Shown here piece by piece: positions 12,401 through 45,900 of a stretch of DNA of 64,000 nt (its first letter is position 1; each line of letters opens with the position of its first letter). Made by a program: the position numbers and the translations under genes. The stretch comes from Mesaphorura yosii (Eukaryota > Arthropoda > Collembola > Poduromorpha > Tullbergiidae). Below the pieces are notes generated by a model. The model ran no database searches. It was not told the origin of the DNA and saw only the letters and a list, made by a program, of their open reading frames with translations. Location of the stretch: positions 124,001 to 188,000 of the forward strand of contig WIXG01000036.1 in assembly GCA_009869945.1 (NCBI GenBank), in the 5' to 3' direction.

Positions 12401-15400
12401 GACCTACTACACGCCTAATGCTTGACTACCCAAACTGGTTCACTGACCGACGTGCTAGTCTATTGGTGTCAGAAATACTGTTCAATAATCTTGTATGATT
12501 GAAGATCCACTACGCCTGGTGAATATCCACTAGATCTTGTGCCGATCTGCTCTGGTCAAATATGATTCACTAAGGGGCTGGCCGGTTAACTCTGGGGCTT
12601 GCCTAGCACATATAATAGTCAGATGCAGTCAAGATGCTCAAGTGAAGTGTCAGTTGGTGTAGCAAGATTACTCGGTGAGCCTGGTACACTGTACCAGCGA
12701 ATCAACTTGCCAGGCTGGTCCACTGGGGGTGTACCAGTCGTTTGGCGAGTCACGGTGGTTCACTGTTGGATGGTGATAATAAGTACAAATTGACGAGCCA
12801 ACCTGGGCCAACCAGGCTGGTTGGCCAGTGGTAAACGTCAGGACCACTTGAAATGTCTCGTAATATAAAGTCGATAGAGAGCCCACCCCCGGTTTTATGT
12901 CTACCTTGTCGAAATTTCTTATCTTTCCGTCTCTGATTCAGGTACAAGTTCCTCGGAAACAGTCCGTTCACAATCGAGGAGTCATCTGGTGTGATAAGAG
13001 TGGCCAAAGGAATTGATCGGGAAGTGAGGGAAGTGTATCAGTTGATTTTGGAGGCGAAAGACTCGAACCCAATCCTGCAACACAAGTCCAGAACCAACGT
13101 CACAATTCGAGTGCTCGACGCGAATGACAACAGCCCCACTTGGCTACCCAAATTTAAAGACAACTTCACAGTCACGGTGCCTGATGATTTGTTGAGCGGA
13201 AGTTATGTGATTGGTGTTTCGGCAACGGATGACGACATTGGTCTTAATGGAGTCGTGAAGTACTCGTTAGGAGGCCAAGATGGGGACAAATTCCAAATCA
13301 ATCAGAACAATGGAGTCATTAAAACGTTGACTAACTTGAAATCAATATCTCGAGCATACCAAATTGAAATTCATGCGACAGACTCGTCTCTGAAGGATCC
13401 GCTTTCTGTGGTTACCTTCATCAACGTTCGCGTGGCTCGGTCAAAGCAGTTCCCAAGAATCAAACCCAGCAAAATGGACTTTACATTCTCGGAAAGCGAG
13501 CGTAATATTTACGTGATGACCATTGAAGCCTTTCCGGGTGAAGTGCATTCGAAGGAGACTACACAATCTGAAAGCGAAAGATTACTAAACAAGCGACAGA
13601 GAAATGATAGCGCCACAGTCAACAGAAGATACGCCAACTCGAACTTAAATTATTACATTGGAGGAGGGAATTTGAGGAATGCCTTCGAAATTGGGAGGCG
13701 TACTGGACAAATTAAGATATCCAACATCGGGCTCGATTACGAACTCACGCACGAGTACGAGTTGTGGATTGAAGTGTGCACTGACGAACAGCCTGAACTT
13801 CGAGCGTCCACTTCAGTTAAAATCAGCGTACTGGATTCCAATGATAATGCTCCTCAGCTGATTTCCAAAGCCGATCTGGAAGTAAGTTTAACTGCGCGTA
13901 CTTTCAGGGCTTAATATCCAACTAATTTGACATGACTTAATTTTGCTTCTCAGGTCACGGCAGGACGCTACTTGCATTTCCAACGCAGCATTTTTGAGGT
14001 CAGTGTTGCAGAAGAAGAGCCGGGTCCCAAACTGGTAACGGTTCTCTACGCCACTGATGCGGACAGTGGAAAGAACGGACAGGTGAAATACCGACTCGGC
14101 GAGGAAAGCTCCAAGTCTTTTGGCAAATTGTTCAGGGTGGACTCGGATTCTGGCGAGTTGTACTCCAAGACGAAACTGGACCGAGAGGAAGTCGGTCAAT
14201 ACACACTGACGGTTGAGGCTTTTGATTTGGGGGTGCCTTCTCTAACCGGATCTGCAACACTCATCGTGACTGTGACTGACATCAATGTGAGTACCCCTCA
14301 AGCACATTTGCACATGAGAGGGAGCATGGCACAACTTTACATACTGTTTTCACTGCAGGATCACCCTCCTCGATTTACTCGCCTTTTCAGCGTAAATGTA
14401 ACAGAAAACGTGCCAGTCGGAACATTCGTGATTCAGGTGACCAGCTCTGATAAAGATATTGGCGAGAACGCAAAATGTACGTACAGCCTAGTCGAAAACC
14501 TTGACGGCAAGTTCAAAATCGACCGTCTGACTGGAAGCATTATCGTGAATGGAATGCTGGACCGAGAGTCCCAGGACGAGTACCTCCTTCGGGTGATAGC
14601 GATTGATGGTTCCTGGAGAGCGGAAACGCTCGTCTCAATCACAATTCAGGATGTGAATGTAAGTGAATAAAAACATTAAAGCTGAGACTTTGTATTCACA
14701 AGATGATTTGGTATGGTTTTGCAGGACAATTCGCCCACGTACGACTACAGCTTCTATAGCTTCAATGTGCCTGAGCACGATCAACCGATTGCATTTGTCG
14801 GGCAAGTGACTGCCACCGATCGGGACAAGCGGGGACCCAACTCTATCATCTCGTACAGCCTGAAGAAGCCTTCCGAATTCTTTACAATCGATCCAGTCAG
14901 TGGCGAAATATTTTCCAAGCGGTCACTGAAGTACAAAACGGGAGGCAAGAAGAAATCCCCCGAGAACGAGCACAGCCTGGTCATTATTGCCTCCGACAGT
15001 GGGAAGCCTGCAATGTCGTCCGAGTGCTCCGTTCGTGTGAACGTCATACACAGGAAAAACCACGCGCCTGTTGTGGAGAAGGAGTATTACTTCAGTGCTG
15101 TGCCGAGCACTTTCAAGAGCCTTGCGAAGGTTCTTCAAGTCAAGGCGAACGACGACCTTGACTTTGGGATTAACGCCGAACTTGAGTACGTTCAAGTCGG
15201 TGGAAATGGGAGCCAGTATTTTGCCATCAACCGAGAGACTGGATGGATAAGCGTCAAAGAAGGAGCTTCCTTCTCGACAACAAATCTAATGAAGCAGTAC
15301 AACATGGAGATTGAAGTCAAGGACAAGGGAATTCCACCGCAAGGAGCGCGCATTTCCACCGAGTTTATTGTTGTCGGGCCCAACAATCACGCTCCGGTGT

Positions 15401-18400
15401 TCAGTGCCTTGAGCTATCGTGTCATAGTGCCAGAGAATGAAGGCCTTGGAACTGTGATTGTGGCCGTGAACGCTGTTGACGAAGACACGGGACCCAACGG
15501 AATTGTTTACTACAACATTACGAGTGGAAATGAAGCTGGCAAATTCGCCATAAATAGTGCTACAGGGGACGTGACAATTCAAAACGAACTCGACTGTGAC
15601 ACTGTTTCGGAATATCAGTTGAACATTACGGCTCACGATTCAGGCTACATGCCCTTGTACAGCCAAGCACAACTGTCCATAATTCTGACTGATGTTAATG
15701 ACAACCCTCCCACTTTCGACAAAATGCTATACGTTGCTCAGCTTAAGGAGAATGCGCCACTGAACACACAAGTAATGAAGCTGACTGCTGTAGATATTGA
15801 CTCGCCTAAATTCAGCATCATTCATTATTCCGTCGTTGGCGGAAATGGTCGCAATTTATTCTCCATCGACAGGTTGACCGGAATTATAACCTCGAAACAA
15901 ACTTTCGATTACGAAGAAAAGCAACAGTACAATTTGGAAGTCCTTGCGGCCAATCCCGATTCGAATCTGTTCTGCTCTATTCAAGTTGAGATACAAATTG
16001 AGGGAGTCAATGAGTTTTTCCCGAAATTCATACAACCAGTGTTTCATTTTTCTGCGTCTGAAACTGCGCCGATCGGGTCGTCGATTGGGATGGTCCAGGC
16101 AACGGACGAGGACCATGGCGCGGATGGGGTAGTGTTCTATCTCTTCATTGGGTCCAGCAACGATGGGGGATTTGCTATCAATCCAACGACAGGCATCATA
16201 ACGGTTGCGAGACTACTGGATCGTGAGACTCAGTCGCGGGTTGTTCTCAGTGTGTTGGCCAAGAACACAGGCTCAATTCACGGAAATGACACGGACGAAG
16301 CTCAGGTGATAGTGATCATCCAAGACGGAAACGACCCGCCCGTCTTTGAAAATGACGTCTATCAGGTGGAAGTTAAAGAAGACGTTTCAATTGGCTCATA
16401 CATCGGTTCAGTCAAAGCACACGACATTGATGTAAAACCGAGCAACAACAGATTCACGTACAAAATTCAAAGCGGGAACGAGAACGACACGTTCAAGATT
16501 GACCCCTACACTGGATCCATTCACACCGTCCGAGAACTCGACAGAGAAACGCTCGATTTGTTCCACCTCACAATCGGAGCGATAGACGTGGGCGATCCGC
16601 CGCAAACCGGTACAGCTGTGATGAATATTCGTATTCAAGACGTTCAAGACAATGGTCCAGTCTTGGAGGAGACATCTCTGCGTGGTACAGTGTTTGAGAA
16701 CGAGCCTCCAAACACCAAGGTCATGACACTGAAGGCAACTGATGCAGACTTGAGTCCAAACGGTGAACCATTCAAGTACTCGATTTTCGGTGGGCTGCAC
16801 AAAGAAAAGTTCAAAGTGGACAAGCTATCTGGAAACTTGTACACTTCGACAACTCTAGACAGAGAGGCACTCGTCGAAGACATTCTTCTCTCGGTGCAAA
16901 TCGAAGACAGTGGGACCCCTCCACTGAGAACCGTTCAAGAAGTTCGCATCTCCATTCAAGACGTCAATGATTCCCCGTCGCAGCCAAGGAACAGCCAGGT
17001 TTTACTGTACGGGTACAGAGGAATGGTTCCAGATAACGAAATTGCGAATGTGCAGCCTTTGGATCCTGACGTGGTTGGCCAGTATAGATGTCGCATCAAC
17101 GATCCAGAAGACATTTTCGTAGTTCCGAGCAATTGCAACATGTTCCTAAGACGCTGGCCGAAAACAAGCAGAAGACACTCGGTTAAAGTGCTCGGCGATG
17201 ACGGACAGCATGGTCAGGTCGAATCAACGCTGAACATCGAGTTTCTCACATTTGACAACAAAACTCTGGAAAATTCAATCGTCATCAGAATACTGAACAC
17301 GAGTGTCAGCTCCTTCCTGGGAAAAGCGTACATGCCAATTCGTTCTTTCCTGAGGCAAATATTTCAGCTACAACCGAATATTTACGGACTGATTCCAATG
17401 CCTGATTTGGCTGGTGTGGTTGACATCGTCGTTGCGGTTGGATCAGAAGGCAATTTTGAAGATCCTGATACAGTTGTCCGCTCCCTACAAAATCACAAAG
17501 CTCACTTGGAGGCCTTGACGGGGTCTGAGGTCATCATTGGCTACTCGCCATGTGCTACAGAAAACGTTTGCTTGAACGGTGCATCATGCACACAGTTCCT
17601 GAGAGCTTATCCGTTGCAAAAATTTGGGGAAAGTCCAAGCCTCATCCTCTCGTTTCCAACCGTTCACGTGGAATTCTCCTGCCTATGTCCCAGCGGATTC
17701 ACAGGTCGAGTTTCATATCTATTACGATTGCTGACGGATTACTATTTTGAATGTTTGCTAATCAATCAATTGACCGTTCTCGATTTTTAACAGGTCTACA
17801 ATGCGAACTTAGAAAAGAACCCTGCATGCCAAACCCATGTGAGAATTCAGCTCCATGCTTGAAGCAAGGTCACAGTTTTCAATGTCTCTGCCCACCAAAT
17901 AAACATGGAAAGCGCTGCGAACTGGATAAGCACGGAGGCTGTGACCCGAACTCCTGCGACAATGGAGGCTCTTGTCAGCTGCAGCAGAACAACTCACCGA
18001 GTGGAAATGCCTACTTCTGCTTGTGTCGTCCAGGGTTCTACGGCAGTCGTTGCCAAACAGCCATGGACGCTTGCAAGCCAAACCCTTGTCAGGTAATTGT
18101 TGTGACCCAGCAAATGTCGTCACAACTTGTGCCGTTGCCTAATATTTTAATTTTACTTCCTAGAACGGTGGCGAATGCATGAGCTTGAGTTCTCTTTCAT
18201 CGGCATATCCCGTGTGCAAATGTTCCGGTCACTTTTATGGACGTTATTGTGAGAAATCTGGGTTTGGCTTCGCTCTCGCCTCTTTTATGAGATTCCCATC
18301 GCTGGATTCCAACACAGACGACATCGCCATTGTCTTCTCAACGAACAAGGAGAATTCATTGCTGGTGTACAATTTTGGAGAGCAGATTGGTGGAAGATCA

Positions 18401-21050
18401 GACTTCGTAGCGATTGAATTAATCAATGGAAAAGTTTCGTTTTCTTTCGGCGGAGCAAGAACAGCGGTGGCGAGTGTCTCGGTCGATAAGTTTGTGGCGG
18501 ACGGCGAATGGCATCGTGTCGTGGCGATAAGAAACAGTCGACTGATTTCGCTGAGCGTGTCGCACTGTGAGGACAGCGGCGACCACTGCCAAGAGTGCTC
18601 TTTGAATGATCCTTCGTGCTACGCGAGCAATCAGGGATTCACAGGGTAAGGAACTTTATCAAGTGCTCAAATGTACAGTAATCCAAGGCGGCTCGTAATT
18701 TACATTCACGTAATTTGATTTCAAGGACGCTGAGCTTCATCACTGATTCGCTATACATTGGTGGCTTGAAAACTGTGAGCGCAATTTTGGAGAGACCGGG
18801 TCAGATTCAGACGGATGACTTCATTGGATGCGTGCACAGCGTCGAAATCAACGGACGAATGTTAAACTTGCAGTCCCCCATTGAATCCCGCTTTATTTCC
18901 GACACCTGCCAGCGGGCAGTGAATGTCTGTCAGGATAAATGCAACCCAATCCAAGAATGCATTGATCTGTGGGATACACACATTTGTAATTGCGGGGACT
19001 TCTATTCACCAAACTGTGCAGACGCCGTCTCCCCTTTCAGCATTGGTCAAGGCTCATCGGTCGAATTCAAAATTGGAGAGAAGTATCAAAGAGAAAGAGT
19101 ATTTAGCAGCTTGAAAACACACAATTATGGGAGTCTAAAGCGGCTGAGTTCGGAAAGTGGGGAGAACAGCTTAGAATTCAGTCTTCGCACCCTGGCCACC
19201 GATGGACTTCTACTGTACGCAGCTTCAAATAAAGATTTTACTCTGCTGGAGGTACGCCATAGCGTTAATAACATTAGCTAAATTCAGAGGGCAGTTTTCA
19301 GCATTCCTTTCCATTTTAGCTGGAGTCCGGAGCACTAAAGTTCAGCACCAAGATCGGTCCTAACCACTTGGTCGTGATGAATCTGGATGAGGTTCAGTTA
19401 AATGATGGATTTTGGCACAACATCAAATTGAGCTTAGAAGAAAGGGCGATCGCGGTGTACATTGACAACGAGAAGCGTGGGGAAGAATTAAACTCGGCGT
19501 CTGCTCACAACTTCATTGATCCCTTCTTGACTTCTTTGGTGCTTGGAGATGTGATTTCGGAGGGTTTACCTTCAGAGGCTCGAATTCCGTCAGGTAAATT
19601 CATGTTTCAGGTTTGCTAAAACGGTGCACTCTGCCATCTTGTTCATTCAGTTCACTTGCTTGTTGCAGGATTTGAGGGTTGCATAGCAAACTTTAGTATA
19701 AATGGTGAAATCCAGCCGCTGAATGGATCCGGAAGTCTATTCGATGCCACCATACACTACGGGAAAGTAGCAATGGGCTGCAGCAGTCCATTGGGCAACA
19801 CGATTACCGCGCCAGATCCATTGAGCATTGGAGTCACATTGGTGATTGTGTTCTTTGTCATCCTTCTTGTCGCCATCCTTGTCAGCTTTGCAGTCTTCCA
19901 TTTAAGAAAGCGAGAGAAGAGCCCGCTTCCGTCCGTTTCCTCCGGTGTGGCTGCAGGAGTCAAGCTCAGCTCCTCCGGGCTGCTGCAGACGGATGTTGTG
20001 AGAAATCATCATTTGATGGATCCCGATCCCAACTCCATGCGAAACTTCGTCCGCAATCCAAAGAAGATGAACGACAACATCTTGGGAAACTACAGTAATA
20101 AGCCAGATGTGGTAATTGAACGGATCAGCAACATGCCCTCAACTCATCACACAAACCACCCCATTCTGAATTGCAACCCCAGCATGATTCATTCGTCCTT
20201 GGGAGCTCACAGTTTGAATCAACTGTCCAATGTGATATCAATGGAGCCTGACATCTCAGAGACACCAGAACACTACGACATAGAGAACGCGAGCTCAATT
20301 GCCCCCTCGGACATCGACATTGTGTATCACTACAAAGGATTCCGAGACAACGTCCGCTTGCCCAGTCGTAACAAATCGTCTCCATTTCACCACTCCCACA
20401 ATTATTCTGGTAGCCCAAGTCATTCACAGTATTCCATGTCGAATCTCAAAAACACGCCTTTAGCAAGGCTGAGTCCAAGCAGCGAACTGTCCCAACAAAC
20501 GCCAAGAATCCTGACTCTCCAAGACATAAGCGGGAAGCCTCTACAGAGTGCGTTATTGGCAGCCACGCCAAAGGATGCGATGACTCCAAGCGAGCGGAGT
20601 CTGAATATCAGTCAAAGCTCTACGAGAAGCAGTCTCACCAGTCCGTCGAGGCACAGGGTCAAGACAAAGAAGAAAAAGAGGAGAAAATGCAGCTTGAGCG
20701 AGAGCGAAGGAGAAGTTTGCATGAATGGTGGCATGCCACTGGCAGGTGGCAGTGCGGCCATTGGTCTAACTGCTGAAGAAATTGAGAGGCTAAACAACTC
20801 TAGGCATAAGAACGACTCGAGTTTAGTGAGTACACTGGACGCGGTCTCAAGTTCCGAACGTGATGACGACGATGAAGACGTCAATAACCTGAGGAGAAGC
20901 TGCAACTCAAACAACCTGAACGCATCTAACTTAAGGATCCGGCGCAGTGGTCATCCTCACCATGACACGTCGAGCGAGGCTGAAGATGGCGAATCGGTGA
21001 ACGATTCCTTCACGTGCTCAGAATTCGAGTACGGCAGTGATAAGAAATAG
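404..21050 (+). CDS. ft: Fat-type giant protocadherin (Fat/Fat4 ortholog), 27 coding exons
   Basis: Atypical cadherin of the cell surface; in flies Fat binds Dachsous and controls Hippo growth signalling and planar polarity. I start at the ATG at 404 because it opens a signal peptide (MKSRGGWLFLLGVVGCC). About 34 cadherin repeats follow (LDRE, DxNDN-like motifs), then four EGF modules (about 17550-18255), LamG, EGF, LamG, a transmembrane helix (about 19820-19890) and a 380-residue tail. Order and sequence are colinear with insect Fat. Exons: 404-775, 863-1204, 1270-1936, 2373-4339, 4523-5860, 5958-6605, 9251-9559, 9625-9858, 9945-10073, 10134-10251, 10336-10517, 10594-10854, 10926-11001, 11071-11150, 11242-11427, 11505-11805, 11877-11932, 12017-12141, 12942-13881, 13954-14286, 14359-14658, 14725-17704, 17794-18092, 18164-18645, 18726-19251, 19320-19593, 19669-21050. 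These join in frame to 4968 aa, near fly Fat length. No frame break is seen. Confidence 0.96.
2209..2327. repeat. 119-bp foldback (MITE-like) inverted repeat in a fat intron
   Basis: The left arm 2209-2242 and the reverse complement of the right arm 2294-2327 agree at 31 of 34 bases. Both ends read AGGGGTACTC going inward. The centre (about 2243-2293) can extend the stem further, for example TTAGT pairing with ACTAA around a short loop. The element lies inside the intron 1937-2372 and has no coding capacity. It looks like a small non-autonomous palindromic element. No clear target-site duplication is visible, so its class is unassigned. Confidence 0.7.
6606..9250 (+). other. 2.6-kb intron of fat
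   Basis: The donor is GGTAAAAAC after ...TCKTK and the acceptor is CTCCCAG at 9244-9250. The exons on both sides are in phase 0 and continue a single cadherin repeat. It is by far the longest fat intron and is thus a candidate place for regulatory sites. Several short open frames occur on both strands; only the antisense one at 6964-7071 looked worth recording. Confidence 0.85.
6964..7071 (-). CDS. Possible 35-residue membrane microprotein, antisense in a fat intron
   Basis: On the minus strand an ATG with AAA just before it opens a 35-codon frame. It has a Gly/Asn-rich start (MSGNGNGNPHPKG), a hydrophobic stretch IFMIIVLLCLLYYF that could span a membrane, and a basic end (TRKN). The frame is also open upstream for 69 codons, so it may be only part of a chance open frame, and TCAG|GTAAAA inside it could be a splice donor. 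No family recognised and no poly(A) signal found nearby. This is weak. Confidence 0.15.
   Translation of the reverse strand: MSGNGNGNPHPKGLSGKIFMIIVLLCLLYYFTRKN
12142..12941 (+). other. 800-bp intron of fat carrying degenerate minisatellite sequence
   Basis: The donor GTAAGTGT follows ...AKIA and the acceptor CTGATTCAG precedes TACAAGTTCCTC. The intron interrupts a cadherin repeat that is intact after splicing. Its 3' half (about 12590-12840) contains the repeat described separately; the rest shows nothing recognisable. Confidence 0.85.
12590..12840 (-). repeat. Degenerate 41-bp repeat units inside a fat intron, inverted copy of the 22.2-kb array
   Basis: Read on the minus strand, about 12690-12750 contains GGTACACCCCCAGTGGACCA followed by GCCTGGCAAGTTGATTCG. 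This closely resembles the array unit near 22780 (CACCCCCAGTGAACCGGCCTGGCAGAATTGAC). A second copy sits about 40 bases away. Only two or three units can be recognised; the edges are fuzzy. Confidence 0.6.
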
Positions 21051-23394: not shown

Positions 23395-24701
23395 ATGGGA
23401 CGCTCATCTAAAGACAGAAGAGACATATTCTACCGACTGGCCAAAGAAGAAGGATGGCGGGCAAGAAGCGCGTACAAGTTACTTCACATGGACCACGAAC
23501 TGAAACTCCTAGAAAATGTAAAGAGAGCAGTTGACTTGTGTGCGGCCCCAGGCAGCTGGAGTCAGGTCCTGGTGCAGTCAATGAGACCGCTGCAGACTGA
23601 CGGCAAGCACATTGTTGCAGTTGACATTCAAGATATGGCACCAATTCCAGGCGTTGTGTGCTTCAAGGGCGACATCACATTTGACGAAACACCGAGTAAA
23701 ATTATAGAACTACTCGGAAGCTCCAAGGCAGATATCGTCATTTGCGACGGGGCACCAGACGTAAGTTCAGCTTCTCCATTCTCCCCGTTAAAGGCTAAAG
23801 GATGCAAGCTGAAATGAATTTGTCATTGCAGGTTACTGGGTACCATGAATTTGACGAGCAACTGCAGTCCAACTTGTTCATGGCTGCATTGAACATTTCA
23901 GTAAAAGTTTTGTCCAAGGGGGGAACGTTCCTGGCGAAGGTATTTCGTTCTAGTAAAGAAGGCGTGCAATGGCTGGTTTCCTCTACGGAAGTGTTCTTCA
24001 AAGACGTAATGATAATCAAGCCTCGAAGTAGTCGAAGTAGCAGCATTGAAGCGTACATTGTTGGACGCCAATTTGAATTGCCTGCTGACTGTCAGGGCAA
24101 ACTTCTGGAAAAGACGTTGACACCTGAAACTTGCAGTGAAATACCTACCAGAATGTGCGGAAGCCCGACCAGTTTCGACTCTGACACAAACTACTCCTTA
24201 CGCGCACTGATCGATTACAAGTACGTATTTTCTGTACCGCCTCCGAACCCGGGTGTACTAGTCAGTTGCTACTGCATGGAAGACTTGCAGCCTGTGCAAA
24301 TGCCAATTAAGCCTCCTTACGAGGTCGCTGTGCAATTAAGGAAAAGTAAGAAGTTGGGCATATGCATCGTCCATTCACTGTCGGTGTCAGCTCAAAACCA
24401 GAAAACCGTAACTTTGGCATTCCGCGGAGGAGTGGAGAATTTGGTCAACTGCGGGAAGGATACAGAAATTTCATTCTCAGAGACTGAAGATCATCTGCTC
24501 ACGCTCAAAACTGTTCTCGACTACATCGTTGCCAATCTGATCGTAGATCGACTGGAACTATTCATCAATAAGGATGGAGACGTACGACCTGGCATATTGG
24601 TACTCGTAAATGATGTCGACTGGGAAATTCTGGGGAAACTGGATTACGAAATTCAAGATTGTGATGCAATTTCCTTTATATCCACTTTACACGGTGGATA
24701 G
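23395..24701 (+). CDS. FTSJ1/Trm7 tRNA 2'-O-methyltransferase fused to URM1 (411 aa)
   Basis: Two exons, 23395-23760 and 23832-24701 (71-bp intron, phase 0). Residues 1 to about 295 are FTSJ1/Trm7: start [23 protein letters not shown] motif [22 protein letters not shown], and the K-D-K-E catalytic residues in SAYKLL, CDGAPD, LAKVFR and SSIEAY. The FTSJ1-typical tail follows, with FDSDTNYSL and [13 protein letters not shown]. Without a stop the frame runs on into a complete URM1 (about 312-411): [32 protein letters not shown], ending in ISTLHGG with the terminal Gly-Gly that is needed for activation. FTSJ1 methylates riboses 32/34 of the tRNA anticodon loop; URM1 supplies sulfur for thiolation of U34. 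In the species I know these are separate proteins. The start is fixed by the conserved MGR. Whether the product stays fused is unknown. Confidence 0.9.
24399..24701 (+). other. URM1 (ubiquitin-related modifier) domain of the fusion
   Basis: About 100 codons cover the whole URM1 fold, which is its usual full length. No ATG stands at the normal URM1 start. The nearest upstream in-frame Met is at 24300, 33 codons before the domain. Uba4/MOCS3-type enzymes act on the C-terminal Gly-Gly, which is intact and ends the reading frame. Confidence 0.9.
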
Positions 24702-24731
24702 TTGATAGTTCTATTGCTATGAAATGATATG

Positions 24732-24737
24732 AATAAA
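24732..24737 (+). terminator. Poly(A) signal AATAAA after the FTSJ1-URM1 gene
   Basis: It lies 31 bases after the stop codon. No poly(A) hexamer is seen between the FTSJ1 and URM1 parts, in line with one transcript. Confidence 0.65.
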
Positions 24738-25325
24738 TGTTCTTCCAACCAATCAAGTGATCCAAGTCTGGAATACAATATACAAAGATTTAAATGAATC
24801 ACAGTTCATGAATCAATTCGGAAATGACTAAATGCGCCTGCATTGCATTCTTGCATCTGTTGCACCTTTGGACCACATGATCGTCTCTTGCTTTTGCTGT
24901 TTTGCTCTGGCATGAGGAGGCTGTACGTGCCTGATGTTGATTCTGTGATGTAAGGGAATTTAAAGCATAATGGAAAGTTCAGTGTACGATTGCCGTGCTG
25001 TGTCTTGTAGAATGGATCTATGAGTGCTTACAAGTAGTCGAACTGTAAACAGAAATGTGTAACATTTATTTCATTAGCACATTCCATTCGCAACTTGCGT
25101 ATTTATTTTACCTCATTGCCTCTGTATTTAGTTTAACCACTGCTTTAATTTCTGTTTAGCTGGTAACTTCTATTACTTTATCTTGACCGTTTATGAGCTA
25201 ATAGTCTGAATAGTATAGTTTATTGTGCAACCTACTTTAAAAGTTCTTCCAAGTGAGTGTGTTAATTGTAATTACGATTCTAGTTAAGTTGACTATCAGT
25301 AGAGTTCTACATCCTAACTGGATCA
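24738..25325. other. Intergenic, upstream of the proline-rich gene
   Basis: AT-rich and without coding sequence. It presumably contains the promoter and 5' untranslated region of the gene starting at 25326, but no clear core element was found. Confidence 0.4.
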
Positions 25326-27431
25326 ATGGCTGCTACCCCAAACACGGGTGCGCAAGCCGCCGTGGCCAAAGCAAGGGCCCGCCTGGAACAACTGTTGGAT
25401 ACTAGCTATGCAAAGATTGAGGAGTTAAGACAGCTCTTAATTAAGGTACCCACTGAATACATTCATGCGAATTTACGACGGTAAGTCTGCAATGTTAGTC
25501 CTTATGAGCCTATGACCTGTAGGAATCCAACATTCAATGGAAAGATTGCACACATGAAATTGGGCCGGTCATGAATCGTCAACGTATTCTTCACGAGACT
25601 GCCATGAAGCGACTGAACGAGACCATAGGGGTGGATGACTCGGCGCCCACTATTAGACACAGCGGAAAGCACATTGGAATGTCTGGAAGAAATTTGCACT
25701 GGCAGCTTAGAAACAATCGAAGTCTTGCATCGTTGCCTCAGCTTCCAAGATCTTCCTTACCACACACTTACAGTCTGCCTGCCATTGAACAGTCGATTTT
25801 ATCTGTCAGAGGTATGTAACGTGTATAATTAATTGCGAAAAATGAAAATAGCAAGGGCTTATTTATAACTGGCATCTTTTTGTTTTGTGTGTAGCAGAAC
25901 CAAAATTTGACTCAATCGCTGAGCTACGACGGGATGAACAAGCTCAGCTTCTGGCAAAATATACTAACGCTAATCATCGACATGACGATCACCCACTTCA
26001 AGTTAGGGATGATAGACAGTGGTACGTTTTGTGTTTTTATTTTTGCAATGGCCGGTAGGTCGCAAGCTATCCGAGTCCTTGACACTTCACATCACTGTAC
26101 GACCTTCTGTTTCAGGTACGGAAGTTTGGATCGAAACATGGTGAAGAAAAAGAAACGAGGCCCGATAGACAAGGCTCGTCGTCATACAAAAATTGTTGGA
26201 TCCATGGCGGCGTTAGAACGAACGGACGAGTTGCAGCCGGATGAACAGTATAAAATCGGTTTGCCAAACTTAGCTAGATTTGACTCTCTTACTAACCGTG
26301 CTTTATCGGGAGCGAGACATTCACCGCCACCCGTGGTTCATCGAGTTCAGGCGTCACCGTCCCCACCGCCACCTCCGCCGCCAAAGTCTAGCTCCATGTC
26401 GTTGCGTGCTACAACGGGGAAACCTGCTGCTCCTCCGATGCTTACACCTGATATAACAACTATCACCGAAAAGCCTCCAGGCTTGCTGCATCTTCCTAAG
26501 GAATCCAACTCAAAGTCAGTTGGCCCGATCGTAGATCGGTCTGGTAACAAGCAAGTTGGTACTTTAGGAGCTTCAGGTCGAGGGTGGTTGGAGACAAACT
26601 TGGACGAGTCGACATTCATGCCACTTAATTATACAACGGAAATTTCACAAGGTAGGAGTGGTTGGGAATCTTATGTACGATGATAAACGACTGATTCACT
26701 GTGCACATAATTACAACGTTTCTTGATCGCCTCCTTTACAGGCACTGGAAGTAGTCTCAGCACTGGTTTGGATACGACAGACTCGCTTGCTAGACCACCT
26801 TTGGCGAGTCCTGCTACCACAGACATTAGTGAAAACAGCAGCAAAAGTAAGCATAAACATCCATCGGCGGCAGAGATTGGAATGCACAAGCAACTGAGCT
26901 TGAACAATGCATTTTTGTTCGACTTGCAGGTAGCGAGGGCAGAGTTCGCGTTTACCTCAACGAGAGCATCAAGCCATTTGTGATGGCCGATTATTACAAG
27001 TACAGCACAAAATACAGACAAGCACAAAATACTCAACTGGGTAAGCAGAAAAACGGTTCAGTGACGAGCAGCGTAACAATGACACTGTTTATTCTTTAGA
27101 TGTTGGCACAGCGGACCTGGCGAATGGGAACGTTCCTCCTATGAACACTAATGACAATGAAAATCTGAACACAAACAGAAATCCTCATCTTCACGTCCCG
27201 AAACTTCCACCAAGAGACATCCAAATGTAAGTCATGCCTCTTGCGCGTTCTTGTAACGAATATATTTCAACCCCATTTAACCTTGCTTGGAAACATTTCA
27301 GGACTACCAAGTCAAATGCTACAGGTGGAGTTCCGTTGCAAGCCGATAGAACCCAACCCCCCCCGATGGTTCTGGCTCCGCTCGATGACGCCAATGTTGG
27401 CTGGGTGATGGATGCTCCTACATTGGTTTAG
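25326..27431 (+). CDS. Unrecognised proline-rich protein (514 aa, 8 exons)
   Basis: Exons 25326-25445, 25523-25811, 25895-26021, 26116-26651, 26742-26846, 26930-27040, 27100-27226 and 27302-27431 join in frame with consensus splice sites, so the gene is real. I do not recognise the family. The N-terminus (ARARLEQLLDTSYAKIEELRQ) looks helical or coiled coil. A basic patch (NMVKKKKRGPIDKARRH), a likely nuclear localisation signal, is coded at about 26140. A proline run (SPSPPPPPPPKSSS) is near 26360. Ser/Thr/Pro-rich disordered sequence follows, and the C-terminal part holds an ordered-looking stretch (YLNESIKPFVMADYYKYSTK) from exon 6. No signal peptide or membrane helix. The start is the first ATG and opens the exon. 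A nuclear or scaffold role is only a guess. Confidence 0.75.
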
Positions 27432-35714: not shown

Positions 35715-38700
35715 ATGACGAGCAAAAGCATCAGCACATCGTCACTGCCTCAGCAGAAGCCCAAGCCACGGCTGAATTCTATGTTATCCATCTGGTAATT
35801 ACCCTTAATGTTCTTAATTACTCTGTTCAATTGTTGAACTTGGAATTTGGCACTGAACATGATTTCAATAATGAGACACATTTCGCCGGTTTGTTTACTC
35901 AAGGTACGGGATTATGATTGGCATTCTCCAAGTGTATCTGACAGTTCAAAGCGTGAGGAAATTTATTTGGTTTACTGAGCTGTCCTGGCCGTACCAGAAG
36001 ACACCGTTCGTTGAACTGAACATTTATATCGCACTAATAGGTAAACATTCGCGAGCTCTCATAATGAACTCTTTACATCATGCTAATGCGAACTCTTGAC
36101 AAGAAGTGTGTTAATATTCGCATTTTTGTTGCTTTGAAGGAGTTGCTGTTCTCATGCTCCCATTTTTCCTGGCTGCCTCATTCCTCCGAATCGGAAACAC
36201 TGCCAATGATAATGGATTCTTGGGAAGACATTTGAATCTCAGAGACGACTGGGCCGAGTTTCTTATGCCCAGCATGTTGTATCAAGGGAGTCATGGACTT
36301 TTCCGCACAATTTGGACTCACAGCGGACCCACGGCCAGCCTCATCCATGTCATCTCAAGCTTCTGCCTTCTGCTGCCACAAACCGTCATGGAGGCCGTGC
36401 TTATTAAATACGGGCACTTGTCCAGAGGTACTATCCAAACCTTTCTTTCGCTATTTCTTTTCTCCAGCTTATAGTCGCAGTGGTTTTTTATGCCTGCAAA
36501 GTTTGGGGATTTCCAGCGATGAGTTTGCAAGCAGTATAAATAAAGCAGCGGGCAAGGGAATAAAAGCGCAAGCGAAAACAGAATGAGTCATCATTAGAGT
36601 GTGCGCTATGCTGGACCGCGTGTGTGCTAACGACCTCAAAGAGATGGATTTAGCGTTCGTCATTCTTCAGTTCTATTAATAATCGTAACTTTCTTGTTTC
36701 GCTCTCACGAAGAATGTATTCTGATTTTGGGAAGATTTAAGAGGTTTCTTTCATCATAATTGTATTAACTCAAAAGGCTGAGACGGAGATCGGCGAAATG
36801 AAACTCAGATCTTCCATCCACCAACGAGTTTTCCACAAAGCTTTTGTTCTTGGAATCAATGATTCCGTTGTAGAGAGCAGAAACCTAACCGCAGCCTTGT
36901 TCATACGATGAAGACATGCAGCATGCAACCAGGAAATAAAGTTATCATAAACTGACAATCTTATCCAATATTTCATACGTATCATACTGACGAATGACTT
37001 TTCTTTTTGACCAATGGAATCAGAGATTCATTTCTGCTTTCTTCACATGGAAATTTCAGATGCGCTGTGGACGACAGACATGGATTTCATGGTTTCCCAA
37101 AGGGATCGAAATGCTATTCTCAAAATTCTCAGCCTTGGCGAAGTCGAGAGTAAATTGATGCCTGAGCAAATTTCTTTGATGGATCACAGTCCGGAAGTTA
37201 TCCGTGTTGAATTTTTCAACTACGCACTCGCATTGGTTGTGTTTGCTCTTCGCTACTCAAATGTATTTTGGTTCACCAACAAGTCCTTCTCGTTGGTGTT
37301 CAGCATTCAGCTCATCCTGACTGCTCTTCACACTCTGATTTCATTCTTCGCCTTCTCCATCCTCTACAAACTCCATGTTTTTGGACCTGAAAAAATATTG
37401 CACAAGAGTCTGCCATTTCTTCTAAATCATCACATCACGCTGCTCCTCTACATTCTCTCCATTATGATTCTACTTGCGTCCAGCAGTGTCTTTTACCATT
37501 ACGGATATGTCAAACTCGCCTCCTTCGTAAGACAAAGAGCGAGGAGCTTCCACATCACCAATGGACAAGCCGGTTCCGGGTACGTTCACGTTTTTTACGG
37601 TTTCAAGCTCTGTTCAAGAATTCCAGCACTGACAAAAATTTATTATGCAGAATTGGTTGGGCTTACTTTCCTCACTGCTCTGCCTTGGCAGTTCTTCTGG
37701 CACTTACCGCGTCACAGAGCTCTCTGATCCATGATGCCGCATTGCTGTATCGTTTGTGTCTCGATATGAATTTGCTTATGTACATTGTCAGCGTGGTCAT
37801 ATTCATGCTTATTTGGATCCTTACATGGCTTGTTCTGACCATCAAGAGTAACTGGACCTTCCAATTGAACGTAATAACCAACTTCGATCAACTATAATTT
37901 TGAAGCATGCAGGAATATTTATTTCATTCGTTTGCCAATGATTTATAGGTCAATGTGGGAAATTTGCGCATGAGAGATCTCGATTCTCTGAGACTTTGTG
38001 CCGAAATTTCGTTGGCTAGCCCGTCAGATATCAACAAGCCGTCAACGCCATTAGTTTCGTCTATGCTCGTCATCAACGAGGGACAAGCTTTCGAGGTGTC
38101 GGATATCGATGCGAAGCGAAATGTCCTAGAAAACTTACTACAGGTAACTGCACCCGCACCTTGTAATCCATTTCGTTATCTTAGACGAAGCTAATTATGA
38201 GTTGCTCTTTTTCGCAGAGCTCACACTTGAAGAGGGAGAAAGATTCGTCTGAGAGAATCTACTGGCCGAGATCCTGCCCAGTAAGCGAGACACAAAATTC
38301 TCTCGAACCAGAAGAGCAGCCATGGCTGAAAGAAACAACAGAAGTAGTTCCGACGAAAAACAAAGTCACCTTCCAGGATGATTTCTTGGCACCAAGGTAT
38401 GACGAATTTCCTACTGTAATTTGTAATTAATTGTTGACGGAGGCTTTCATTGAATCTCACGATTCACAGGAGATATTCTACTACACCGACGCCAAGATCC
38501 GGTGGGCTGAAGGGAATCTACCGCGATGTTAGTTACACTCAGCACAAACCTTGCAGCATTGATGACGGTGACTACGCGCTACTCAGATGCGGAAAGCAGC
38601 CAATCAATCGATGCTCTCTGTCTCAGGAGCAAAGGGCCGAAGAGAAACACGTAAGTATAAACAAAGACATTTCAAAATTTTTAAAACTATTGAAACTGCA

Positions 38701-40267
38701 ACCCGAGTCAGAGACCTTTTATGAGTTCTGGGTTGCCATCAATCTGTACTTGTTTGTGACTAACTCAAGATATTTTACTCTAATCCATAGGTTTTAATTG
38801 ATCTTGGCTCAGCATCGCCTCGTCATCAGCAAATGATGCCGACAGCCTTGAACCCAATGCTTCCAAGTGCACAGGTAAGACGTTATTGAATTAAAGGCGT
38901 ACTTCCTTTCTCCTTCAATAAAGTATCAGGAATGAAGTTGGATGTGCATTTAGAGAAGAGATTTTATGAAGGCACCTGCTGCGTTTAGATTTATTGGACA
39001 TTGACAATTTGATCCCATGAACAATTCACAGCGGATTGACCGTAATTATCTAAATTGATTTCCATTCGATGTGTAACGCATTTTCGCTCTAACCCTTTGT
39101 GAAGCGACCGCCAAAGCTCTCCTGGACTAGCTAAATGTAGTAGAATAACAAACTAGCGAGTAGTGCAAACCAGATTCGATTGCAAAAGAGCTTTCTCCTT
39201 GATAGCAGTATTTGACAGATTGAAAGGGTCAAAATGCTAAGATAGTGGCCGCGCATCAAAATGCCAGATCGCCGGGCTATCAGAAGTAGAAAATAGAAAG
39301 CTTTCTGTGTAATTTCATTTTGCTTTTAAAAATCATTCTCAAATCAGTTTAAGCGCATGGGGCATAATCAAATTATTTGTTCTTGCAGGGAGTTCCTGGA
39401 AGTTCCGACTCTGGTTATAATGGAACTGGAAGCAGCACAGTCTCTTGTTCGGACTCAAGAAGCACGAGTTCCAACTCACCACCCGACAGAACCGTGTGCG
39501 GCGAGTATCTCAAGTCGGGAGAACCAGCTTGCTGCAGCCAAATTGCAGACTGTGGATGCGATTCTCAACAATGCTACTCCAGTCACTCAACGTATGGAAA
39601 AATTGGGCTGAGTCGAAAGAACAGTGTCAGATCCCATATTGAGCCAATCTATGAAACCAAGCGAGTGTACGATCTTCGACATGTTCCATTGGACGGAACG
39701 TACGGTGAAACTACCAAGAGGCCAATGCTACAGTCGCCGACTAATGCCTCAGGAGCTGGTCCCTCTAATTATCAAATCAAACCCCAAGAAAAAGAGTACA
39801 GCAGCAGAACATTGCCCGAGGTAGATTACAAAAATACTCACACGCCACCGGCGCCCGTGCAGCAGAACAGCAGCGCCAGTGAAAGCGATTACGGAATGAC
39901 AATTCACAGAAGGCACTCCATGCGTCGGTCTTTCACACACAATGACTCTACTATTCAAACGACTCCGTACGGGCGCTGTACAAACATCAAAATAAACCCT
40001 GCCGATCAGATGCCGCCTGTCCCTCCACCACTTCCTCCGCTTTCCTTCCTGGGCTCGTCGGCAACCACGGGTATAAACTCAGCAACCCCCATGTCAAATA
40101 ATTCCCACAATAGCCCAAGAAACTCAGCAGCATATTTCGTGTCCACATCCAACTTTTCTCCTCACCACACAACAATCCCCAACCACAATAACCTCGCTTC
40201 ACCGCCATCTCAGTTGACACCAAATACTTGCTCTACCTTCCTGAATAATTCTTACAGTTTAAAATAA
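35715..40267 (+). CDS. tinc: Tincar-type eight-pass membrane protein (about 920 aa, 10 exons)
   Basis: Exons 35715-35794, 35904-36040, 36140-36427, 37060-37579, 37651-37870, 37949-38143, 38218-38396, 38470-38650, 38791-38874 and 39389-40267. The N-terminal half has eight hydrophobic segments: near WYGIMIGILQVYL, IALIGVAVLMLPFFLA, HVISSFCLLLPQTV, FFNYALALVVFAL, SIQLILTALHTLISFF, LLLYILSIMILLASS, ALAVLLALTASQ and YIVSVVIFMLIWILTW. A Ser/Pro-rich cytoplasmic tail of roughly 500 residues follows. This matches Drosophila Tincar, a developmentally regulated protein (heart, eye) of unknown biochemical role. The acceptor of exon 4 is uncertain: one 39 bases upstream, just after AATCAG, is also in frame. 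No signal peptide; the start is the first ATG of the exon. Confidence 0.82.
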
Positions 40268-42946: not shown

Positions 42947-45900
42947 TTAAGCAGGTGTATCCTTCTTGGCAGGTGCGCTTCTCCAGCTTCCATCGCTTTC
43001 CCCTTGCCCCGCATCTTTCTCACGTTTCTCGTCGCGCCTGGAATAGTTGGGTGAATTAGTATGGATTCAATCAACCTTTATCATTCTACCAAGTTTTTTT
43101 CTTAATTCACTAACCAATTAGTCTCTCTGACACGTCTCGGCTCCGAGTCCTTCTCCTTGCGTGGCTCCGAGTCTCTGCCAGCTGGAGTGCTACCGCCACC
43201 ACGTCTCCAAGTTGGCTGCCAAGCAGCAGATTTCTCGCCACCTTCCTTATCATCATCTCGAGCAGGACGGTCACGGCCGTCACGGTCTCGGCGCATCTCA
43301 AAGTCGTCCCGGCCAGCTGGTCTGTCACGTCTTGCACTTCCACCAACCTCGAACTCACGAGCGTTGGGTTGTCTGCCACGAGTTGGTTCCATGTCAAACT
43401 CGCGAGAATTTGACTGTCTAGTGCGAGTCGGTTCCATATCGAACTCACGAGAGTTTGATTGTCTCGCGCGAGGTGGCTCCAAATCAAATTCACGAGAGTT
43501 TGGTTGCCTGGCACGAAGTGATGGTTCCATGTCGAATTCACGAGCATTTGTTGACGGTCTAGCACGAATTGGCTGCTCTCGATTGTTACCGAGGTCACGC
43601 CTTGCTTCAGCTTCAAACTCGCGATTGAGGTTCCGACGCAAGTCCGGTTCCTCACGCGGAGTTCTTTCTTGTCTTCCGTCCAAATCTCTATCCTTTCGCG
43701 TATCAGTGCTGTTGTTTGTAACACTTGCGCCACCACCTCCGCGCTTCCAGCTCGGTTGCCAAATGCCAGCCGACGGTGATGGCTTGTCGCGAGCTTCTTT
43801 TTCTTCCAATTCTCGGTTTCGAGCCAATTGTTTCTCCAATGTGAGTTTGTTTGCCTCTTCTTTTTCCTTTTCTATTTTCTCTCGTTCTTGCCGCATCTTC
43901 TCTTCCTCGCGCTGTTTAATTTCTTCCAGTCGGCGTCGCTCAATCTCTGCTTGCTCGTCGAGGTACTTTCGACGTCTATCTTCCTTTCTTTGTAGTTTTC
44001 TTTCAGCCAAACGCTTTGCCTTCTCTTCGGCAAACTTCTTTTCATAATCAGCAACCTTGGCCAGGAAGACATCTCGACGGGAGTCCAAAAGTTTCTTAAG
44101 AAATTCGTCCTTGTCTTCTTTCATTCGCTTCATCCTGTCGCGATTTGCAACCGCAAGTTTACGCTCTTCGATCAAGTTTACAATGCGCTCTTGCTCATGA
44201 ATCTCCCAATCTTTCTGCTCCTGCTCCTTCTTCTCTGTGAAGCTCTTTTCAATGACAGGAATTTCTTCAAGGCGCTTAGCTCTCTCCAAGTGATCAAAAC
44301 GCTTTGATTGGAACTTCAGACGTTGACGATGCTCGTTTGCTTCTTTAGCCATTTCCTCTTGCTGGCGCAACATCACTGTTTCCACGTCCAATTTTCCCAG
44401 ATCGTCTTCTTCAAGTTTCTTGAAGACATTTTTACCAAATGGTGTTTTAGACAATTTTTCCATTTGTTCTTTGAAGATGCGAGCCTGAATTTCCAGTCTT
44501 TCTGTTTCAAGACGCTTCTTCTCCCGGTCTTCTCTTTCAGCCTCCAATCGTCTGTGTTCCAATAGCAGCTGTGCTTTAGCGAGCTGCTCATTTCTCCATT
44601 TTTCTTCATTTTCTCGGTCCACGGCTGTTCTTTCCAGCTCCTCACGTCTATCAGAAATAATCTTTTGTCGCTGCATCAGCTTATGGTGACTTTGCTTTTC
44701 ATAGGTGAGATAATGGTTGTGAATTTGGCTGCGAAGTTTATCTTCTTTAGCCTGCACATGAACAAAAATGTAAGAATGGAAATATCACTTTCCATAATTT
44801 GCATGTAGCACTGAACCTACTTACTTGTAAATGAACTGGTCCAATCATTTCCACCGTTTCTCCCAAAACATTGAAGACGTTCACCAGTTGGAGCCGAACT
44901 GTTTCAGAAGGCATCTCTTGCAAATGTGGTCCTTCAGTAAGATCCTCCCTCGACGCCTCAGCCAACGAATCTCCGAATCTTACACAATTCGATCTGTGAT
45001 CGATCATGATTTGCATATCATTGAAACGAACTGCATCGACAAGAAGCTGTTCCAAGCGAGACTTGTCACCAAAGACTCCCATACTTAGAAAATGTTCGTA
45101 GTTGATTGACTTATACAGCTACAATAAAGTATTAATATTAGAAATCAGTCTCTGGCAACTCCCAAGTTAAGCTTATTCTGCAATTTGCATCAAGAAACGG
45201 TGAAAGCTGTACCTGCGAAACTTGTTTAATCAAGCGAACCAAAGCCACATCTTGAAGGGGTTCAATATATTGCTTCAAGTATTCGTTTTCATTGTTCTCG
45301 ACCAGAGCTTGAGTGATGGTGTTAACATTAGCACACAACAGCAGTGGATTGAATTCAACTTCCAGAAGTTCATGCAGCTCCTGCAACGCAGGGACAGAAT
45401 GAGCCAATACTCCGTAGCGATGCAAGTCTCGAATCAAAGATTTTCTTGTGGGCGGTTGAGACAAGAACAAAAGTGTAGACAACTTCTGGGCCTTTTCCAT
45501 CATGCCCTTTTCAGTCTCCACAAATCTTTCAAATTCAGGATGAGTGACCGGGAAAGGAATTGCCAATGTTGCCAGCGCCACTTGAGATGCATTTCTACAG
45601 AAATGAGAATTTATTAAAGATTGTTCAATCATTTTTCAGCAAACTTGACTTGACTTATTACTTACCTTTGCAATTCTTCGCGGGACAAAGATTTCTTCAT
45701 ATCCTTGCAGAGCAAGTAGTACTTCAGCAGAGTTGCAGCATGGAACAACAAATTCCCAGCCTTCCAGAAAACAAGAGACAATTTCTGGTAGTAATATGCC
45801 ATCATTCGTGTTTGTGATTTTCTTGATTGGTTCATCAGAAGATGAATGTCCTCGATCGCTTTGTAAGCCTCTTGCCACAGCTCCATTGAAATGGCCGAAT

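Follow-up and report, generated by a model that had tools for sequence, protein, structure and literature searches.

The window analysed here, a stretch of 64,000 nucleotides from contig WIXG01000036.1 (C36) of the collembolan Mesaphorura yosii, contains a gene for a 411-residue protein in which a tRNA methyltransferase of the Trm7/FTSJ1 type is joined to a complete URM1. A second, diverged gene with the same construction is found on another contig of the assembly (C5). We call these genes copy A and copy B, respectively. Trm7/FTSJ1 is the 2'-O-methyltransferase responsible for Cm32 and Nm34 in tRNA, and Trm7 and URM1 both act in the anticodon loop. Both parts belong to known families, and as far as we have searched their joining is undescribed.

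Gene structure of copy A

Copy A occupies positions 23395–24701 of the window on the + strand. Its ATG lies at 23395, and the 411-residue product is obtained after splicing of a 71-nt intron (23761–23831) that separates an exon of 122 codons from a second one encoding 289 residues and the stop codon. The features to which we refer below are the following, in window coordinates:

23395–23760, + strand: exon 1, fusion residues 1–122, the start of Trm7/FTSJ1 with K28 and D118; 80% identity to exon 1 of copy B
23761–23831, + strand: intron of 71 nt, phase 0, GT-AG; matched in copy B by an intron of equal length and codon position
23832–24701, + strand: exon 2, with the remainder of the methyltransferase, the Trm7 tail, the linker, URM1 and the stop codon
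23455–24074, + strand: FtsJ domain (Pfam), residues 21–203, interrupted by the intron; K28, D118, K158 and E195
24075–24407, + strand: C-terminal region of Trm7 plus linker, residues 204–314, with a segment resembling the THADA contact (CG...DSD..Y) and the conserved tail
24306–24356, + strand: conserved tail block of Trm7, 17 residues, from the alignment to yeast Trm7 (6jp6)
24300–24302, + strand: Met279, the last in-frame ATG, with no Met codon from there to the stop
24346–24350, + strand: junction word GTAAG, which might act as a cryptic splice donor; copy B has none at its junction
24408–24698, + strand: URM1 domain, residues 315–411, with the HGG end
24732–24737, + strand: AATAAA-type signal 3' of the URM1 stop, the sole A[A/T]TAAA within 23395–25000

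The preliminary description of this DNA stated that one reading frame joins FTSJ1/Trm7 to URM1. The fusion is real, but because the intron falls in the methyltransferase half, which that description missed, copy A does not, strictly speaking, form a single reading frame in the genome. Its further statements stand: no stop follows the FTSJ1 tail, and the frame runs on into a complete URM1 that ends in ISTLHGG, directly followed by the stop, with the C-terminal Gly-Gly free. The junction and the whole of URM1 lie inside a single exon, which is open from residue 123 to the stop; the coding frame of exon 2 contains no internal stops, as against 13 and 18 in the other two forward frames. A 45-nt mini-intron at 24346–24390 was considered and rejected, since its donor would start inside conserved Trm7 tail codons and is missing from copy B.

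Identity of the two domains

The Pfam scans of the fusion proteins, performed with a threshold of E up to 0.001, place an FtsJ domain at residues 21–203 of copy A with E 8.4e-51. In a PDB sequence search with copy A alone, the best structures for this half were human FTSJ1 (8y2o, E 4.7e-73, 249.5 bits) and yeast Trm7 (6jp6, E 5.4e-63, 216.4 bits), well ahead of the best SPB1/FTSJ3 match (SPB1, 132.7 bits) and of MRM2 (111.4 bits). The alignment with yeast Trm7 extends through the 17-residue tail block, which lies opposite TNPPYKKALELKRSGKL in the yeast protein, so the fusion point comes after essentially the whole of Trm7. The K-D-K-E catalytic set is found in copies A and B as K28, D118, K158 and E195; the corresponding human residues are K28, D116, K156 and E191, according to the portion available of the report on the FTSJ1 complex with THADA and tRNA (PMC12145424).

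That report gives Cys238–Tyr250 as the THADA site of human FTSJ1, with further contacts at D126 and Y130, and describes residues 208–227 and 253–329 as invisible in the complex (PMC12145424). In the numbering of the 8y2o alignment, both copies have retained Cys238, Gly239 and Tyr250, and Ser249 is present in copy B alone. Three other contacts are lost in both: Asp240 is replaced by S in copy A and K in copy B, D126 by E and I, and Y130 by Q and H, respectively. The invisibility of residues 253–329 suggests that the tail is probably flexible, and URM1 appended to such a tail need not disturb methylation.

The Urm1 family is matched at residues 315–411 of copy A with E 6.2e-30, and in copies A and B alike the alignment covers positions 2–96 of the 96 in the beta-grasp profile (Pfam). 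The closest solved structure to this half of copy A is mouse URM1 (1xo3, E 2.9e-21, PDB sequence search). Adenylation and thiocarboxylation of URM1 require a free C-terminal Gly-Gly. In both copies HGG directly precedes the stop, and it is the order of the domains, Trm7 and then URM1, that leaves the Gly-Gly free. URM1 of copy A has no ATG of its own; as the last Met is residue 279, any URM1 made from an ordinary AUG start would carry 35 further residues from the Trm7 tail and the linker.

A second fused copy

Copy B (contig C5, locus L003, 1441–2777) encodes 421 residues and agrees with copy A in domain order, in the phase-0 intron site, in the 71-nt length of the intron and in the HGG end. 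Exon 2 of copy B likewise has no internal stops in the coding frame, against 13 and 20 in the remaining forward frames. Across 409 aligned residues, the identity between the copy A and copy B proteins is 62%. With an overall pS of 0.88, synonymous change between them has reached saturation and no dN/dS ratio can be obtained; dN itself is low, 0.13 for the methyltransferase core and 0.29 for URM1. The least conserved stretch is the tail plus linker, with 33% identity and dN 0.72, values affected by an uncertain alignment in that region. From the saturation of synonymous sites and the low dN in both domains, we conclude from these alignments that the duplication is old and that both domains have been constrained ever since. 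The simplest reading would be a single fusion event with duplication afterwards.

At the level of sequence, the open frame beside stop-rich alternatives and the keeping of the fusion in a copy as diverged as B confirm that the joining is more than chance. An assembly or annotation artefact, in which two neighbouring genes were misread as one, is extremely improbable in our judgement, and nothing was found that speaks for it. Two contigs, 349 and 668 kb long, carry the same fusion at 62% identity, and a comparison of C5:50001–140000 with C36:114001–198000 (open frames of at least 40 aa, E 1e-4) revealed no common gene besides the fusion. With such a second copy and its unrelated flanks, it is very unlikely that the assembly was collapsed or misjoined here, and likewise that the junction is an error, a possibility named beforehand as something that would undo the finding. 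A segmental duplication was likewise rejected, the fusion gene being all that these two stretches share and no wider block being found between them. A mixture of two species as the origin of the two copies was also considered and is unlikely: the CTU2, CTU1 and THADA matches described below each fall on one contig, and one ThiF locus is recognised as MOCS3, among four loci whose ThiF frames were listed and of which one frame was scanned with Pfam for rhodanese.

Another possibility is that each locus gives two separate proteins, by alternative transcription, splicing, polyadenylation or internal initiation, the fused frame being a by-product. Several features could serve this purpose: the GTAAG of copy A at 24346 and, in copy B, the linker residue Met305 as a possible start of free URM1, an ATTAAA word between the domains (L003 2430) and acceptor-like stretches upstream of the linker (L003 2252 and 2314). 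However, none of these is common to the two copies, and the linker is open and in frame in both of them despite synonymous saturation. The copy A GTAAG falls where the codons align with the tail of yeast Trm7, the sole GT[A/G]AG word of copy B exon 2 sits inside URM1, and copy A offers neither a Met in URM1 nor an A[A/T]TAAA before the URM1 stop. Hence, we think that separate products are quite unlikely.

Search for unfused genes and for partners

The genome searched is a 93-Mb assembly of 1127 contigs, which may have gaps. A search of it with the Urm1 family gave no separate URM1, the two candidates found both being fused; when the URM1 domain of copy B was used as query with E up to 10, the same two fusion loci were recovered and nothing else. 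URM1 is thus encoded as part of a fusion, rather than as a stand-alone small protein, at both of the loci found. The FtsJ family search gave 15 exon-level matches, 4 of them in the two fusion genes and 11 at nine other loci. By tblastn of both fusions against these nine loci (E up to 1), the one on contig C113 showed 31–34% identity over 220–241 residues and that on C955 matched in two pieces, about 23% and 45% identical; C296 (E 0.019) and C324 (E 0.17) were weak, and five of the nine gave nothing. The genes on C324 and C281 resemble cyclopropane synthases (PF02353), as described below. No close unfused Trm7 was detected with exon 1 as query either (E up to 10), the fusions being followed by C113 (39% over 67 residues) and C955 (45% over 42 residues). 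The check for a separate URM1 or FTSJ1 gene that had been proposed for this assembly has therefore returned neither an unfused URM1 nor an unfused close Trm7.

That the two fusions are the only form of URM1 and of close Trm7 in the assembly is well supported by these searches, but not proved, on account of the possible assembly gaps and of searching exon by exon. The latter can miss split genes, as was the case for a PP-loop family search that missed the CTU1 pieces caught by a protein query.

The partners expected for both activities were also sought. A frame on C80 with the end of a ThiF domain and a rhodanese domain (Pfam) is the candidate for MOCS3. CTU1 is represented by a candidate in five pieces on C104, with a best E of 1.7e-24 obtained with an approximate protein query, and CTU2 by a single, partial hit on C10, which scored 31.9 bits (E 9.9e-6) where the cut-off was 27.9. 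A THADA-family domain, DUF2428, is found on C234 with E 2.5e-25. With these candidates present, the URM1-dependent thiolation pathway and at least one partner of Trm7 appear to exist in this animal.

A further PP-loop protein, resembling thiolases of the TtuA type (5gha, E 2.7e-6), is encoded on C113, a contig of about 8.3 kb (L025 1675–2148, minus strand). This protein is not the CTU1 candidate of C104, and it shares its 3.3-kb locus with short cysteine-rich frames that look metallothionein-like by eye.

Functional interpretation

The reading that we favour, and consider fairly probable, is that of a bifunctional protein for anticodon-loop modification, which would combine ribose methylation with sulfur carriage by a URM1 of free Gly-Gly end. 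The Trm7 part, together with THADA and probably also WDR6, would methylate tRNA at the ribose of position 32, of position 34 or of both. URM1, hanging on the probably flexible tether that Trm7 already has and leaving the methyltransferase unblocked, would be adenylated and thiocarboxylated by MOCS3 and would pass its sulfur to CTU1-CTU2 for the formation of 2-thiouridine at U34. Against this reading count the only partial retention of the human THADA contacts, the GTAAG of copy A and, in copy B, Met305 and the ATTAAA between the domains. The minimal consequence would be a fixed one-to-one supply of both activities; a stronger and unproven one is that the sulfur carrier might be brought to the Trm7 complexes bound to tRNA. 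The preliminary description likewise suggested that the fusion could couple the two modifications, direct URM1 to tRNA or give methyltransferase conjugates through the free Gly-Gly; each of these is a hypothesis. More tentative, and on balance unlikely to us, is obligate tethering, in which the URM1 thiocarboxylate would be carried on Trm7-THADA/WDR6, so that methylation and U34 thiolation took place at one hub or were ordered by it, and the two ancient paralogues might each have their own positions or tRNAs.

Alternatively, the protein might be a precursor, made as one chain that is afterwards cleaved within the linker to release an ordinary Trm7 and a URM1 with a short N-terminal extension, in which case the joint would only fix the product ratio. 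The low conservation of tail and linker is as expected of sequence of little importance, and the cutting of a fused sulfur carrier has precedent, since DRJAMM is reported to cleave Deinococcus MoaD-MoaE in the part available of PMC8832034. Nevertheless, activation of URM1 requires no cut here, its Gly-Gly being already free at the C-terminus, and in the alignment no common cleavage-like motif was recognised by eye in the two linkers. We regard this possibility as unlikely, if less so than separate products from each locus.

It could also be argued that URM1 is mainly a handle for conjugation rather than for thiolation, by which Trm7 would be attached to other proteins or regulated. The preserved HGG ends would suit such a role, and URM1 is a known protein conjugator, as in the urmylation of Ahp1 (PMC7016264, from the portion available). 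However, no other URM1 gene was found, and the genome keeps candidates for MOCS3, CTU1 and CTU2, so some of the fused URM1 presumably serves thiolation; a mainly conjugative function thus seems very improbable.

The interest of the system is that it offers a natural test of coordination between two anticodon-loop modifications, as the only URM1 found is a C-terminal domain of Trm7; the literature searched does not present Trm7 and URM1 as one machine. It also suggests that URM1 can function with a large N-terminal partner.

Comparison with known systems

No description of a Trm7-URM1 fusion was found in the open-access literature searched; within that scope, the earlier remark that no fusion of this kind is described agrees with ours. 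Judging by titles and the openings of abstracts, papers that name both proteins are mostly reviews of tRNA modification, next to some work on yeast, plants and mammals. In the part available of a 2026 review on Trm7/FTSJ1 (PMC13299246), the words 'fusion' and 'URM1' do not occur. As for relatives elsewhere, none of the seven pattern matches in viral contigs and none of the 20 in prokaryotic genome contigs was confirmed, which says little on other animals.

In comparison with Trm7/FTSJ1 proteins, the similarity of the fusion begins at residue 1, reaches into the C-terminal tail and includes the catalytic residues, but the fusion adds a whole URM1 after the tail and is present in two genomic copies. 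In comparison with URM1, the profile and the free HGG are the same, whereas here the domain is found only as the C-terminal part of Trm7, and in copy A it lacks an ATG of its own. Drosophila also has two Trm7 paralogues per genome, CG5220 for position 32 and CG7009 for position 34, with no URM1 fusion mentioned in the portion available of the report (PMC7038984). According to PMC12145424, conservation of Cys238 does not extend to the Nm34 enzyme of Drosophila; both copies here have this Cys, which therefore does not point to a Drosophila-like division between positions 32 and 34.

The nearest precedents, judging from the part available of PMC2948915, are the thaumarchaeal Cgi121-Ubl and the MoaD-MoaE fusions. 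The first also joins a ubiquitin-like domain to a tRNA-modification protein, but it is archaeal and differs in partner (KEOPS) and modification (t6A) (PMC2948915). Bacterial and archaeal MoaD-MoaE proteins combine a sulfur-carrier domain with an enzyme, as here, although their partner is an enzyme of the carrier's own pathway (parts of PMC2948915 and PMC8832034). The surroundings of the two genes are described below. The domain order of MoaD-MoaE also differs from that of Trm7-URM1.

Neighbouring and other loci

The region upstream of copy A (window 356–21050, + strand) contains a giant cadherin gene of many exons, Fat-like by reading, whose extent was estimated by eye. It includes a 1027-aa frame with seven cadherin stretches (14707–17790), and the frame 18164–18649 carries a laminin G domain. 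The many cadherin domains together with laminin G point to an animal. Queries with a tardigrade CAHS protein and with the nematode cuticle-collagen family PF01484 returned no matches, although neither had a positive control and so they exclude nothing firmly. Just upstream of copy B lies instead a frame that resembles F-box/leucine-rich-repeat proteins by eye (L014 2244–3542, + strand). Also recognised in the window is eIF3a (43102–45635, minus strand), its frame 45141–45635 matching eIF3a of 3j8b with E 9.7e-25; the highly charged 560-aa frame beside it may be the C-terminal part of eIF3a. This frame is one of five, among the eight window frames scanned, with no Pfam match (E up to 0.001), the others being those at 19620–21050, 25895–26683, 37011–37727 and 39368–40267 on the + strand.

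Among the remaining loci there are genes resembling cyclopropane-fatty-acid/mycolic-acid synthases, a family that is uncommon in animals. They were found on C324 (L044 957–1767, PF02353, E 1.7e-85) and C281 (L048 745–1369, E 3e-61), and a third, judged by eye only, lies on C13 (L047, about 994–1237).
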